Assembly (NCBI GenBank): GCA_937922795.1
Contig: CALAJK010000027.1
Coordinates: forward strand, 1-64,000
Reading direction: 5' to 3'
DNA: 64,000 nt
From: an uncultured Anaerolineae bacterium
GTDB taxonomy: Bacteria > Chloroflexota > Anaerolineae > Aggregatilineales > Phototrophicaceae
The notes under the pieces are model-generated. The model made no database searches. It was given only the letters and a program-made list of their open reading frames with translations, and was not told the origin of the DNA. A program made the translations under genes and the position numbers. Of the stretch, positions 11,522 through 17,180 are shown piece after piece; position 1 is the stretch's first letter, and the number at the start of each line of letters is the position of its first letter.

Positions 11522-12724
11522 TTATTGCAGTGCATAGGCCCACAGGAAACGCGCTTCGCTCAAGGTGTAGGCCACCAGCAGTTGGCCGGGCGAGAGCGTG
11601 CTGACGACCAGCATCGGCTCCGATACCTTCACTGTCTCGCTCGGTTCGATCACGAGCATATCGGAAAAAATCGGCGCCTGCATTTCGCGCACCAGCGGTC
11701 GCCCCTCAACATCCATGATAGGCGAACCGTCAGAGCGCTTCAGCCAGTAGACTTTTTGATCGCGCGATGCCACCACCACCGCGTCGCCATACACGACCGG
11801 AGACGGCCGAATGGCGCTGGCAGCTACCTGCTGCTTCCAGACTTCAGCCAGATTGCGCGTGGTGTCAAGCGCATACACGTTGCCGACCAGATCGCCAACA
11901 TACAAAATATCATCGGCGATGGTCGGCGCGCCCCACACCCAATCCAGGGTGTTGTAGGTGTTGAGGATTTCCCCGCTGGTAGAAACCTCGAACACCTTAC
12001 GCCCAAAACTGCCGATGAACAGGCGGCCGGCATAGTAAGTCGGCGCTGAAGGCGCAGCTCCCTCCAAATCCAGCTTCCACAATAGATCACCCGTCTGCGC
12101 CGAGACCGCGTACAGATAATGATCGAGCGAGGCGAAATACAGCACGCCGTCCTGCAGCAGCGGCTTCGACCACACGCCGTGTCCGGTCGGAGATGTCCAC
12201 TGAATGCGGAAATTGTCGCGATCCAATGCGACTACGTTCTTGGTGCTCAATCCCACGAAAATGAACTGGTCATCGCCGACCAGATCGGCCACCAGGTGAC
12301 CAGTCGTGCCTGAGACCGGTGTGCCCTCCGGATTTTCAATCCGCGCGGTGGGCACATCAACCGTATGCAGCACCTGGTTATAAGTGGCCACAAGCAGGGT
12401 GTCATCATCCAGGGGAATGGGAGAAGCGAAGAACTGATTGGGGCCGTTCTGGGCGCGCACTTCCCACAACCGCGGTTTACCTTCATTATCTAACCGCACT
12501 TCACCACTGGGGTTCAGCAGCTTAACCGGTTTGCCATCTACAGGGTCTATCATCACCAGTCGATCGTTGAAGGCGACCAGAATATTCTGGGCGTCTCCAA
12601 ACGTGCTGAGACCCGCCCAACTGATCCCCAGCGGCGCAGGGCCGCATCCTGCTGCAGCCAACACTAGCAGCAGCCCCATCATAACCAGCCAACGTGGCCG
12701 GCTCCATCGCTTGGCTGTAGTCAA
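11522..12724 (-). CDS. Beta-propeller (PQQ-like repeat) lipoprotein
   Basis: A 400-residue protein with a lipoprotein signal: a basic start, a hydrophobic stretch, then LAAAGC, giving Cys27 as the lipidated residue. The mature part is built of PQQ-like blades (ALDRDNFRIQW, YAVSAQTGDLLWKLDLEGA, GNVYALDTTRNLAEVWKQ), like BamB. BamB helps assemble outer-membrane proteins, but most Chloroflexota lack a typical outer membrane, so a role as a surface or periplasm-like scaffold beside YidC is inference. The start is TTG at 12724 with GAGGAG 8 bp upstream, lying inside the end of yidD. Its position between yidD and yidC is unusual. Confidence 0.8.
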   Translation of the reverse strand: MTTAKRWSRPRWLVMMGLLLVLAAAGCGPAPLGISWAGLSTFGDAQNILVAFNDRLVMIDPVDGKPVKLLNPSGEVRLDNEGKPRLWEVRAQNGPNQFFASPIPLDDDTLLVATYNQVLHTVDVPTARIENPEGTPVSGTTGHLVADLVGDDQFIFVGLSTKNVVALDRDNFRIQWTSPTGHGVWSKPLLQDGVLYFASLDHYLYAVSAQTGDLLWKLDLEGAAPSAPTYYAGRLFIGSFGRKVFEVSTSGEILNTYNTLDWVWGAPTIADDILYVGDLVGNVYALDTTRNLAEVWKQQVAASAIRPSPVVYGDAVVVASRDQKVYWLKRSDGSPIMDVEGRPLVREMQAPIFSDMLVIEPSETVKVSEPMLVVSTLSPGQLLVAYTLSEARFLWAYALQ

Positions 12725-12726
12725 AT

Positions 12727-12951
12727 CTATCGCTCCTCAAGATCAGGCACTGGGTCATAGCCTCCCTGATGGAAGGGATGACAGCGTGAAATGCGTTTGA
12801 TGCCTAACCACGCACCCCGGATGAAACCGTAGCGCTCGATGGCTTCATACGTGTAGCGGGAACAAGTCGGCTCATAGATGCAGGCTGATGGCAACGCTGG
12901 CGAGATATAACGCTGATATAGACGGATCAGGCGCAAAGCCAGCCACTTCAT
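12727..12951 (-). CDS. yidD: Membrane protein insertion efficiency factor YidD
   Basis: A 74-residue protein matching the whole YidD family: [31 protein letters not shown] with the conserved cysteines, and [17 protein letters not shown] at the end. It is a small amphipathic, membrane-associated protein that supports YidC-dependent insertion. The ATG overlaps the rnpA stop codon (ATGA). Length is normal. Confidence 0.95.
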
Positions 12952-13307
12952 TCTTCAGCACCTCTCTCCTGTGAATCTTTCAGCTTCGCCTGGCACAGCA
13001 CATCCTTCAGCACGTCCAGGATAGATGAAAAGACAGCACCGCCCACAGGCGGGCGGGCGATGATCACAACATCATACCCAGGATGTAACTGCGGGTGGAG
13101 GCGACGCATGGCCTCGCGCAGCCGACGGCGAATCCGGTTGCGAGTCACTGCTGTGCCCAACCGTTTGCCCACCACAAATCCATAGCGATTATAGTCCAAG
13201 CCGTTGGCACGCACGTTGAGGAGCAGTGAGGGCCGGGAGAATGTGCGGCCCTGCTGCCGCATCTGCTCAAAATCACGGCTATTACGCAACCGATAGCGCG
13301 ATTCCAT
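12948..13307 (-). CDS. rnpA: Ribonuclease P protein component RnpA
   Basis: A 119-residue protein with the RnpA signature [14 protein letters not shown] near residue 57 and the N-terminal [17 protein letters not shown] block. It binds the RNase P RNA and assists 5' maturation of tRNAs. It starts 10 bp after the rpmH stop and has no strong Shine-Dalgarno site of its own, so it is probably translated by coupling. It overlaps yidD by 4 bp. The RNase P RNA gene is not in the window. Confidence 0.95.
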
Positions 13308-13636: not shown

Positions 13637-13666
13637 TTGCGTTGGCTTTGTATGCTTCGGTATAAT
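13637..13666 (+). promoter_or_regulatory. Promoter of the three-gene unknown module
   Basis: On the plus strand, TTGCGT (13637-13642), an 18-bp spacer and a perfect TATAAT (13661-13666) precede the gene starting near 13747. It is divergent from the rpmH promoter. The rest of the 13495-13746 gap shows no DnaA-box cluster and no other gene. Confidence 0.65.
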
Positions 13667-13746: not shown

Positions 13747-15330
13747 ATGATCCCAAGCCATCACTGGGCGCGCAACTTGACCATCAGCAAAGCAGACATA
13801 GAATTCCTGACTGGGCTGCTGATGGAAAGAGAAACACCACTGACCACCGAAGAGTTGGCGCGCATCCTGATTGAAGAGCGGCTGCAGCAAGAAGCGGCTC
13901 GCCTGCAAGAACGTTTCCGCGACATACAGATCTACAACCCATCCCATACTTATACCGTCGGCCAGCGTTTGGCCTTCTCCGCTTTTGATTACGAGACAGC
14001 GCAAGTCGTTCACGTTCGACCAGGGGATAATCCGGAGTATGGCGATTTCAGCGTAATCGGCGTGCGTTTCGATAATCCGCTGCTCAACCCCCCCGATCAC
14101 CCGCGCGAATTTGCGGCGGGTTTGACTACACCTCACGTCCTCAGTCAAGTCGAGACCAACGGCGCTGGTAGTCTGTTCGACAGCAGCGAATTGAGCGCTG
14201 ACTCTATTTTCGCCGCGGTAGGCCCAGATCTCGTCAAACGGCTTGGCGAAACTCTCAGCAAGTCGCCCGATCTCATCATGATGGCGCAGCGCTGGTTCCC
14301 CCGCGATCTGCTGCTCGAAGCCAACATCGGTCATCTCAACCTGGCGGAAGCGGTGCTCGATATGCACGGTGGTGGCCCGCTGACTACCGAGGCCATCCTC
14401 AATGAAATCGGCGGTCTGGGCAATGCGCCGCTCGCGCTGCAGGTTTTCTCGCTGAACTACGCGCTTCGCGACGACCCGCGTTTTGACGAGGTCGGCCCAA
14501 CCGGCGAGGTGCTGTGGTTTCTCACCCGTTTGGAACCCGCCGAAGTCCAGCGCGTCCCTGCGCTCCTACAATACACGCCGATAGACTGCGACACCAGTTT
14601 GCTGACGCCGGAGATGCTGGCGCTGGAGGCCGAGATCGGCGACGAACTGTCACCGCTGCCGCCCCAAACCGGCATCGATCAGGGGCAGGTCACATTAATC
14701 TATCCCCATCGTCGGGTCGGTACACTGCCTTTGAACGCCTCAACCAGCCCCTTGTTTCCCACCGCCCGTCAAACGCCCCGCATTTGGGTGACTCTGATCG
14801 ATGGGCAAGACGGCGAGGAGTACCAGGGCTGGGTCGTGCGCAAAGAACGCTACGTTTACGGACTGGCCAAATTCTACCGCAAGCACAAGCTCCCCATCGG
14901 CGCGCAGATCACGGTGCGGCGCAGCGAGGATGAGGGCAAAGTCATCATTGACTTCAACGCGCATCGGCCACGCACAGAATATGTGCGCCTGATCGTCATC
15001 AAGGGCGATCAGATCCTTTTTGAGAATCATAAACGCGCCATCGGCGCCGAATATGATGAGCTGATGATCCTTGGGGCGGACGATCTGGCCGCGGTTGACG
15101 CTCTGGCTCAGTCCGCGCAGCAGCAGCGCCGCAGCCTGTTTTCAATCCTGCGCCAGCTCATCTCGTCGCTAGCAGTGCTCACCCCCCAGGGAACCGTCCA
15201 CGCCAAAACCCTGTACAGCGCTGTCAATGTGCTGCGGCGCTGCCCACCCGCGCCGATCCTGGCCACGCTGGCGGCCCATGTGGAATTTGAGAACGTCGGT
15301 GGACATTACTGGAAACTGCGAACGGATTAG
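13747..15330 (+). CDS. Unrecognised multidomain protein with winged-helix-like and beta-rich segments
   Basis: A 527-residue protein from the ATG at 13747; a GTG at 13744 fits equally, and GGAGG lies at 13728-13732. I do not recognise a named family. A helical start (LTTEELARILIEERL, about 30-50) leads into a small beta unit with YTVGQRLAFSAFDYETAQVV and VRPGDNPEYGDFSVIGVRF. A HARE/winged-helix-like segment follows near 225-270 (LTTEAILNEIGGLGN, then FDEVGPTGEVLWFL). Next come a beta-rich domain near 305-430 (FYRKHKLPIGAQITVRR, VIIDFNAHRPRTEYVRL) and a last winged-helix-like tail. It has no membrane segment, so it is a soluble, probably nucleic-acid-binding protein. It is first of three closely spaced genes with their own promoter. 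Confidence 0.75.
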   Translation: MIPSHHWARNLTISKADIEFLTGLLMERETPLTTEELARILIEERLQQEAARLQERFRDIQIYNPSHTYTVGQRLAFSAFDYETAQVVHVRPGDNPEYGDFSVIGVRFDNPLLNPPDHPREFAAGLTTPHVLSQVETNGAGSLFDSSELSADSIFAAVGPDLVKRLGETLSKSPDLIMMAQRWFPRDLLLEANIGHLNLAEAVLDMHGGGPLTTEAILNEIGGLGNAPLALQVFSLNYALRDDPRFDEVGPTGEVLWFLTRLEPAEVQRVPALLQYTPIDCDTSLLTPEMLALEAEIGDELSPLPPQTGIDQGQVTLIYPHRRVGTLPLNASTSPLFPTARQTPRIWVTLIDGQDGEEYQGWVVRKERYVYGLAKFYRKHKLPIGAQITVRRSEDEGKVIIDFNAHRPRTEYVRLIVIKGDQILFENHKRAIGAEYDELMILGADDLAAVDALAQSAQQQRRSLFSILRQLISSLAVLTPQGTVHAKTLYSAVNVLRRCPPAPILATLAAHVEFENVGGHYWKLRTD

Positions 15331-15343
15331 GCGAGGCCTGAGT

Positions 15344-15781
15344 ATGTCAACCCCCTCCGCGAAACCCAGCACACTGATCAAACCAACGCTTGAGACGAAA
15401 TTCCACATCGATCCGAGCTGGTGGAGCCGTCGCCCTAAGGAAGACTGGCGGATTGAGCTGCTCAGTCACCTGCTGCCCGAACAGCGCGAGCGATTGAGCC
15501 AGAGCGAAGAGGGTCACAAAGTCGACTACATCGATCCGGAGACAGGCGAGGTCAAGCAGCTCGACGAACTCGGTCTGGCCATCCAGTCCGCCGCCAAAGA
15601 CCCGAATTTCATCAACCCGCATACCTCTTTGGTGGACTGCATCTTTCGCGTTTTTTTAGCGAACGGGAATATCCCGCTGTCGCCCATCGAATTGGCCGAG
15701 AAAACAGGCCGCCCGGCAGCGACGATCTTGAAAACCCTCAGCGGCAGCACCATTTATAAGGGAATCCGCCCCACTCAATAG
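15344..15781 (+). CDS. Unrecognised 145-residue protein with C-terminal helix-turn-helix-like segment
   Basis: A soluble protein of 145 residues starting at the ATG 13 bp after the preceding stop. The middle has the compact, conserved-looking block KVDYIDPETGEVKQLDELG. The end, PLSPIELAEKTGRPAATILK followed by TLSGSTIYKGIRP, looks like a winged helix in which the second helix could contact DNA or RNA. The N-terminal part has WWSRRPKEDWRIELLSHLLP. No enzyme motif, membrane segment or cysteine pair is visible. Its tight position between two other unknown genes suggests a shared complex or pathway. Function is unknown. Confidence 0.75.
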   Translation: MSTPSAKPSTLIKPTLETKFHIDPSWWSRRPKEDWRIELLSHLLPEQRERLSQSEEGHKVDYIDPETGEVKQLDELGLAIQSAAKDPNFINPHTSLVDCIFRVFLANGNIPLSPIELAEKTGRPAATILKTLSGSTIYKGIRPTQ

Positions 15782-15815
15782 GCGTGCGATCTGCCACACG
15801 GCGAGGATTAACCAT

Positions 15816-16244
15816 ATGAGCCGCGTCATCAACCCGGACAGCACAGGCAAGCAGCGCAACCAACTCATGCGCACGGCGGCTGAGCTGCTGCGCCGGCTAA
15901 GCCAGAAGACCGATCTTGACGATGAAACCCGCGACATGGTCGCCATGCTGGTCTTCTGCCTACGCGGCATCGACGAAGGGATTGAGCAATCGGCCGCCGC
16001 TTGGGAAAAGCGCGACTATTGGGTGAAGGCCGAAGAACTACGCCAGCGCTGGCGCTGGGCCGGCCAGATGGCGGATGCGCTGCAGGCCATGGTCTTCCAG
16101 GATGACTGGCAAGCGCTGCCGCAGATGATCGTGCGGCTGCTGCCCCACTTTTCGGAGATCAAGATCACCAAACTGACCCGATCCGAAGCCCTGTGGCACG
16201 GGGCTTATGCGCGGCTCATGCAGGAAAAATCCCCGTTGAGCTGA
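15816..16244 (+). CDS. Unrecognised 142-residue all-helical protein
   Basis: The third gene of the module, 34 bp after the second. Its 142 residues look almost wholly helical and are rich in Arg, Glu, Leu and Trp (AAAWEKRDYWVKAEELRQRW, RWAGQMADALQAMVF). No known motif is recognised. The start ATG has only a weak AGGA-like site 9 bp upstream. It ends 9 bp before the convergent LCP gene. A partner or adaptor for the two larger proteins is a reasonable guess, nothing more. Confidence 0.72.
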   Translation: MSRVINPDSTGKQRNQLMRTAAELLRRLSQKTDLDDETRDMVAMLVFCLRGIDEGIEQSAAAWEKRDYWVKAEELRQRWRWAGQMADALQAMVFQDDWQALPQMIVRLLPHFSEIKITKLTRSEALWHGAYARLMQEKSPLS

Positions 16245-16253
16245 CGTCTACCG

Positions 16254-17180
16254 TCAATCAAAACGTCCGGCCAGCCACGGCAAAATGCGCTCGTAGTTGG
16301 GCACAGCATGACCGGCGGCGGTGCCCAGAATGTACTCGCGGTCGATCACGAGCTGGTCAAATCGCCCTATATTCAATACCAGCGGCGGCAGCAGCCGCGC
16401 CGCATCCCAAAGCGTGAGATCAGTATCCAGGCTGCGGGATAGGATTTGCAGCACGCCAGGCCAGTGGACAGGATTGACCATCCGCGCGAGCGCGGCGCTG
16501 ACCACCTGCTGCTGACGTCCGGCGCGGCGATAATCATCATCAGGATTGCGGATACGTGCATAGATCAGCGCACGTTCGCCATCCATGTACTGCCGCCCCG
16601 CCTCAAACTGGACTGTCATGACGCCGCCATCATCCGTGGGATAGGCAGTATCGGTGATCGCGCGTTCCACATCAATCGTGACGCCGCCCAGGGCGTCAAT
16701 GATCTCGACAAAGGTCTGAAAGTTCAGCCGCACATAGCGCTCAGGCCGCACGCCGAAATTGCGCTCCAGCGTATCCGCCATCAGGCGCGGGCCGCCGCCC
16801 GGCGCGAGCTGCTCGCCCAGGAAATTCACGGTATTGATGCGCTGGCTGCCATAGCCTGGCACTTCCATGAACAGATCGCGCGGGATCGAAAGCAAACTGA
16901 CTTTCAAACGCGCTGGGCTCACCCCCAACAGCAGAATGCTGTCCGCGCGCGACATGTATCCCTCTGCGCCGCGGCCATCCACCCCCAACACCAACACATT
17001 GATCTGAGGCGGCGGGAACAAGAGATAGATCACCAGCGTCAAACCGCACAAAAAAATGGGGGCAAGCGCCGCCAGGGCGATCACAATCGGCCAGTTACGG
17101 CGACATCCTGACGGCCCCAAAAGCCGAGGCTTAGGCGCGGTTTGAGCAGTTTGAACCGTTTGAGTTGCCTGGTCGCTCAT
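16254..17180 (-). CDS. LytR-CpsA-Psr (LCP) family cell-wall glycopolymer ligase
   Basis: A 308-residue protein. A cytoplasmic tail of about 30 residues precedes one membrane segment (IVIALAALAPIFLCGLTLVIYLLF) and an extracellular LCP domain. Signatures are VDGRGAEGYMSRADSILLLG, SIPRDLFMEVPGYGSQRINTV with the catalytic Arg, and a late ALIYARIRNPDDDYRRAGRQ. LCP enzymes move lipid-linked glycopolymers onto peptidoglycan or other surface acceptors. The start overlaps the stop of the upstream lipoprotein gene by 4 bp, so both are translated together and probably act on the same envelope material. Confidence 0.9.
   Translation of the reverse strand: MSDQATQTVQTAQTAPKPRLLGPSGCRRNWPIVIALAALAPIFLCGLTLVIYLLFPPPQINVLVLGVDGRGAEGYMSRADSILLLGVSPARLKVSLLSIPRDLFMEVPGYGSQRINTVNFLGEQLAPGGGPRLMADTLERNFGVRPERYVRLNFQTFVEIIDALGGVTIDVERAITDTAYPTDDGGVMTVQFEAGRQYMDGERALIYARIRNPDDDYRRAGRQQQVVSAALARMVNPVHWPGVLQILSRSLDTDLTLWDAARLLPPLVLNIGRFDQLVIDREYILGTAAGHAVPNYERILPWLAGRFD

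Follow-up and report, generated by a model that had tools for sequence, protein, structure and literature searches.

In the window (the whole stretch of 64,000 nucleotides analyzed, from a 3.6-Mb draft genome of an uncultured Anaerolineae bacterium in 127 contigs), two adjacent plus-strand genes, g1 and g2, form a conserved unit, whereas the neighborhood around them is not conserved. The pair was found in nearly all sampled genomes of the class. The g1 product is predicted to carry a B3-fold domain, a fold familiar chiefly from plant gene regulators, set between winged helices, and belongs to a family that is undescribed as far as the searched libraries show. The predicted folds point, with about an even chance of being right, to a chromosomal, trans-acting DNA-binding regulator (g1) acting with a small winged-helix partner (g2).

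The g1 gene (13747-15330), recognized from its ORF, an AlphaFold2 model and the class-genome search, encodes a B3-fold/winged-helix protein of 527 residues. It is followed after 13 bases by g2 (15344-15781; 145 residues) and, after a further 34 bases, by g3 (15816-16244), which encodes a helical protein of 142 residues and is a neighbor outside the conserved unit. All three ORFs of the original prediction were present on the plus strand, and they are regarded as real genes since homologues of each keep the reading frame intact in many genomes at about 30-77% identity. The gene assigned from its sequence as rnpA (12948-13307, minus strand) is divergent from g1-g3, with an rpmH-like reading upstream of it recognized by eye only. 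Between yidC and rnpA, a position commonly taken by yidD, lies a minus-strand gene (11522-12724) for a PQQ/beta-propeller-like lipoprotein of 400 residues, which is kept in the relatives of the window. A dedicated promoter had also been proposed, and the promoter scan did not bear this out: there was no plus-strand consensus site upstream of g1, and the sole plus-strand site lay inside the gene (13777-13804; two sites in all vs. 1.1 expected). By eye, a perfect TATAAT was seen upstream of g1 at 13661-13666, its -35 element being poor (TTGCGT at 13637-13642, 18-base spacer). A separate promoter for g1 is nevertheless likely because transcription runs divergently from rnpA.

The distribution of the pair was analyzed in 150 genomes of the class Anaerolineae, g1 being searched with a profile of 54 sequences. 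It was found in 138 genomes (the tally was 139 before G313 was dropped, its sole matches being a methylase fusion) and g2 in 139; both genes were present in 135 genomes and neither in eight. In all three genomes with g1 without g2 (G276, G314, G326), and in all four with g2 without g1 (G283, G302, G313, G331), the gene lay at a contig end, as exemplified by g2 of G313 at 16218-16628 of a 16670-base contig. The orthologous pair occurred in one copy per genome. Among the 135 genomes with both genes, g2 came next after g1, in the same orientation, in 131, the gap being 4-917 bases with a median of 49. Of the four pairs that were not adjacent, two were at contig ends (G267, G321), and the other two (G323, G346), both from the single genus g220, were truly apart.

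A scan of GTDB found 397 relatives. Among the 80 loci listed, g2 followed g1 at 77, and at the remaining three the sequence stopped within 250 bases past g1. The titles of these 80 were Anaerolineae, Anaerolineaceae, Anaerolineales, Anaerolinea, Chloroflexi or Chloroflexota, with no others, so the lineage restriction that had been predicted was borne out within the searched data. Neighborhoods were compared at 70 loci, comprising the 43 named loci without rnpA and 27 others. With the pair itself counted apart, as well as a frame that runs antisense to g1, the commonest neighbor clusters occurred at no more than 29 of the 70 loci; hence, no conserved partner besides g2 was detected there, and no nuclease, methylase, helicase or polymerase gene was recognized as a conserved neighbor. 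In ten of the 138 genomes (G088, G128, G304, G307, G330, G333, G349, G352, G367 and G370, from the families f4, f6, f112 and f113; five of the ten were re-read) a short g1 of about residues 5-270 stood beside g2, the B3 domain and the C-terminal winged helix being gone. The B3 domain can therefore be lost, and the N-terminal half together with g2 makes up the most conserved core.

The original prediction placed the proteins in no known family, and the searches agreed with it. Neither Pfam nor NCBIfam gave a match above the curated cut-off for g1, g2 or g3, and PADLOC gave no family for any of them at E 0.01. No nuclease domain was found in g1-g3 with these three libraries, and for g1 and g2 Pfam and NCBIfam showed no ATPase domain either. 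The alignments of 54 members for g1 (the window's own and 53 of 78 complete sequences) and 56 for g2 (the window's own and 55 of 73), together with those of 10 and 25 members, yielded no convincing family match. The Pfam B3 profile was absent at E 1 among the matches listed for the 54 g1 members (25 of 28 families), and it did not match any of 27 excised B3 domains, so g1 is not filed within the plant B3 sequence family. HARE-HTH was hinted in two of the 54 g1 members at a best E of 0.069, below curated strength; the g1 model gave structural Z scores of 6.8-7.2 against RNAP-delta entries. When the PDB was searched by sequence with a profile each for g1, for g2 and for three segments of g1, nothing was returned at E < 0.1 (best 0.12, for g2). 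A viral library returned nothing at E 0.001, and nothing in the plasmid or phage records matched g1. Weak Pfam hits of g2 and g3 (PUB10_N, DAO, Tenui_N, EAD8) were rejected as chance, being far below the cut-offs and scattered among members. As far as these libraries show, the results support the claim of an undescribed family.

The AlphaFold2 model of g1 (mean pLDDT 90.1, pTM 0.77) agreed with the winged-helix and beta-rich segments that had been expected. It begins with an N-terminal helical, HTH-like segment (residues 4-58, 13756-13920; helices 4-9, 15-28 and 34-56) and a small beta-rich segment (residues 63-127, 13933-14127). For the latter, the sequence profile found no solved relative at E < 0.1, and we suspect, by eye only, an SH3/Tudor-like barrel; the structural match list was taken up by B3 and winged-helix rows and so says little on residues 1-130. 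There follow an acidic winged helix (residues 191-264, 14317-14538), the B3-fold domain (residues 310-407, 14674-14967) and a C-terminal winged helix (residues 459-525, 15121-15321).

The assignment of the B3 fold is based on Foldseek (probability 1.00, E 3e-3 to 1e-2) and the Z scores of VIA-align, the model having a pLDDT of about 88-97 over this domain. VIA-align matched it to plant VAL1 (6j9a_A, Z 10.6, rmsd 2.8, 97 aligned residues), FUS3 (6j9b_A, Z 10.5) and ARF5 (4ldu, Z 10.4), and to the restriction-enzyme domains of LlaJI.R1 (6c5d_B, Z 8.5) and BfiI (3zi5_A, Z 7.7). B3 proteins filled 20 of the top 21 rows for g1 (Z 8.1-10.6), two of which, 4i1k and 1yel, we take to be B3 proteins. 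The match extended over the whole pseudobarrel, residues 310-407. Foldseek gave a probability of 1.00 and E 3.2e-3 against 5yzy_C; no PDB match reached E 0.001 for g1 or g2. As a best Z of 7-8 is typical of models without a clear match, according to the tool's own note, B3 is the only firm fold assignment in g1. In this range, the winged helix of residues 191-264 resembled 5fyw_X of a transcription initiation complex, presumably TFIIE (Z 8.2, rmsd 1.9, 59 aligned), 8x6g_E of an RNAP open complex, presumably RNAP delta (Z 7.2, rmsd 3.5, 75 aligned), another RNAP-delta entry (9a6y_A, Z 6.8) and TFIIE beta (1d8j, Z 7.2, but with an rmsd of 7.0), and forkhead domains scored about equally (Z 6.5-7.1). 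Residues 459-525 matched 3bz6 (Z 7.8, rmsd 3.5, 67 aligned).

The charge was unevenly distributed along the g1 family. The B3 domain had a mean net charge of +3.8 and residues 446-527 one of +1.2, whereas the means were negative for the N-terminal helices (−4.1), the winged helix 191-264 (−8.7) and the linker after it (−7.2). No segment was better conserved than this winged helix, with a mean column identity of 0.69. The pattern suggests that the C-terminal half of g1 contacts DNA and the N-terminal half contacts protein. Within the B3 domain, R323, R345, R365 and R368 were lysine or arginine in 70-96% of the 54 members and are putative DNA contacts. In AtABI3, the cited passages place the DNA-contacting arms at residues 576-591 (N-arm) and 622-639 (C-arm), about 46 residues apart (PMC8398556), a spacing that, on those passages, fits R322/R323 and R365/R368 of g1 as two basic arms. 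The predicted B3 fold and winged helices lend support to the nucleic-acid-binding look ascribed to the module.

The g2 model (mean pLDDT 83.0) and weak structural matches (Z 3-5) indicated a C-terminal winged helix at about residues 93-145 (15620-15778), in line with the HTH anticipated for this protein. KICSTOR/GATOR1 chains headed the structural rows (Z 5.7 and 5.5), level with winged helices from proteins unrelated to them, and assorted winged-helix families were hinted among the g2 members with a best E of 0.0015. A CxxC motif was present in 14 of the 16 g2 relatives examined outside the class, with a further [HC]C in 11, and in just one of the 56 members of the class alignment. The outside relatives are likely to keep a zinc site, as predicted from the motif. 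These g2 relatives often lie after yebC and a ruvA-like gene (L290, L292, L293, L294) or after yebC (L287, L297), hence beside Holliday-junction genes in the first group, by names read from sequence, and no g1 was there.

Relatives of both genes occur beyond the class. Ten diverged proteins encoded in other Chloroflexota genomes were combined into a profile, and this aligned to columns 167-545 of the g1 profile with an hhalign probability of 99.5, by which the g1 architecture is predicted to be common to relatives outside the class. The segment equivalent to B3 in these ten proteins was acidic (−2 to −6) and devoid of the N-arm basic residues. In a sample of 251 genomes of the phylum, the ten-protein profile matched 44 (12 in the window's class) and the g2 profile 64 (33 outside the class), and no genome outside the class had both. 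The two are thus not obligate partners everywhere; either both predate the pairing, or it has disappeared elsewhere. In the loci L111-L120, the g1-like gene stood mostly after a ROK-kinase-like gene and before HEAT-repeat-like, FemX-like and MurE-like genes (names from sequence), a context that is cell-wall-flavored.

Other g1-like proteins were joined to methylases. The first 540 residues of a 2054-residue protein (L231:5823-11987) matched g1 and the rest was Eco57I/TaqI_C-like methylase; an 873-residue g1-like protein (L234:12182-14803) ended in an N6 methylase. The g1 profile covered hmm columns 20-519 in the former and 58-246 and 304-522 in the latter, and no g2 match was found in either stretch. 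A third g1-like protein, of 1122 residues with a tail (L232:763-4131), was followed by a DnaQ/DinG/RecQ-like helicase gene; such genes, for about 1400-1900 residues, lay near the g1-like genes of both L232 and L234. The methylase fusions imply that restriction-modification contexts, too, make use of the g1 domain set as a module, and the three arrangements possibly represent an undescribed restriction or defense arrangement.

According to the reading that we favor, g1 and g2 would be transcribed as a two-gene operon. The g1 protein would bind duplex DNA through the positively charged B3 domain, with arms around R322/R323 and R365/R368, and also through its C-terminal winged helix. Its acidic N-terminal half, composed of the HTH, the small beta segment and the second winged helix, would contact proteins, most likely g2 as the small winged-helix partner and possibly RNA polymerase. 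The pair would work in trans on targets other than its neighboring genes, as a factor in transcription or in the nucleoid, and g3 would stand apart as a separate gene. A more far-reaching version, in which g1-g2 serves nearly all Anaerolineae as a global or general transcription factor, with g1 sitting on promoter or chromosome DNA by its plant-type B3 domain and a winged helix and docked to RNAP by its acidic, TFIIE/delta-like winged helix, and g2 as the small subunit, is put forward tentatively, with a small chance of being correct.

The original prediction had read g1-g2-g3 as one module beside the rpmH operon. Consistent with a three-gene system tied to this locus, the order g1-g2-g3 was kept in 5/5 sampled members of the window's family (in G321 g1 is on a separate contig owing to a contig break), and a complete g3 was present at 41 of the 80 close-relative loci. 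No such link was seen beyond this family. The g3 gene was found in just 54 of the 150 class genomes and adjoined g2 in five of the 54, all of the window's own family, and in none of the 49 others; no widely shared neighbor of g3 was seen in the 12 regions, of 20, in which it was called. It makes up a separate family of about 140 residues in which many R, K and W positions are invariant. Since g3 is an independent gene, the module reading fails and was rejected, and co-occurrence held for g1 and g2 (135/150) and not for g3. As to the location, rnpA is indeed adjacent here and the rpmH-like reading was seen by eye, but the placement is not conserved: rnpA was present at 37 of the 80 named loci, and outside the relatives of the window g1-g2 lies elsewhere, which leaves the functional argument from location unsupported. 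Signs of a replication origin were also missing at the locus, with no DnaA-box-like match nearby, no sign change of GC skew within 1-30000 and the best dnaA match on another contig, and a link to rpmH or to the origin was rejected. A three-gene system of this kind is very improbable.

The remaining alternatives retain the pair and differ in its function. The pair might have been domesticated from a restriction-modification or epigenetic system, so that its B3 and winged-helix unit would recognize either a site in DNA or a mark of methylation and serve defense or mark reading instead of general transcription. The fusions of distant g1 relatives to Eco57I/type IIG-like and N6 methylases in two class genomes agree with this, as do other relatives that have further methylases or a DinG/RecQ-like helicase next to them. 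In the cited passages, B3 domains are likewise carried by the restriction systems CglI/NgoAVII (PMC4267653) and LlaJI (PMC12707154, PMC7680126) and by the restriction enzyme BfiI (PMC4081073). We hold this reading to be unlikely, as the orthologous pair is near-universal and single-copy, no nuclease, methylase or helicase was recognized as a conserved neighbor, PADLOC did not match g1-g3 and plasmid and phage records contained no g1. Near-universality also speaks for a general factor bound to RNAP like RNAP delta or TFIIE, with the acidic winged helix docking and the B3 domain and C-terminal winged helix holding the promoter. The matches of residues 191-264 to TFIIE and RNAP-delta entries (Z 6.8-8.2), their strong acidity and their conservation point the same way. 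Such Z scores of 7-8 are, however, common among small winged helices, forkhead domains score about equally, the HARE-HTH hint was confined to 2/54 members, and no polymerase gene was recognized as a conserved neighbor, which makes this alternative quite doubtful. A role in DNA repair or recombination, for which the yebC context of g2 relatives outside the class (6 of the 16 loci examined, with or without the ruvA-like gene) could be invoked, has only a slim chance, since that context was absent for the class pair in the loci examined and Pfam and NCBIfam showed neither nuclease nor ATPase domains in g1 and g2.

The regulator that we favor resembles several described proteins in parts. With the plant B3 factors VAL1, FUS3, ARF and LEC2, g1 shares the predicted fold (Z 9.6-10.6 over 94-97 residues), and its putative arm residues are basic where the two DNA arms of those factors lie; it differs in being bacterial and devoid of a Pfam B3 sequence match, in having its B3 domain between winged helices and in being paired with g2. 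Like LlaJI.R1, BfiI and NgoAVII, it would represent the B3 fold in bacteria, but no nuclease or NTPase domain was found in g1, which is near-universal in the class, and no restriction partner was recognized nearby. It is the predicted acidic winged helix (Z 6.8-8.2) that resembles HARE-HTH/RNAP delta (RpoE) and TFIIE; the architecture of g1 differs from theirs and the sequence match is a hint. In the methylase fusions, most of the g1 profile is matched; they differ by the attached Eco57I or N6 methylase domains, with no g2 match nearby.

Because the bacterial B3 domains described in the cited passages belong to restriction systems, a near-universal B3 protein without a nuclease is unusual; in the literature listings and passages retrieved, no Chloroflexota B3 domain was described, nor any B3 protein of bacteria unconnected with restriction. 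If the more far-reaching version is true, g1 would give bacteria a B3 protein whose role is a core one and lies outside restriction. As a one-copy, near-universal, non-nuclease protein it would show a core cellular role of B3 in a large bacterial class, and it would bear on the origin of the plant B3 factors. Few regulators have been characterized in Chloroflexota, for which g1-g2 would be a concrete candidate global regulator.
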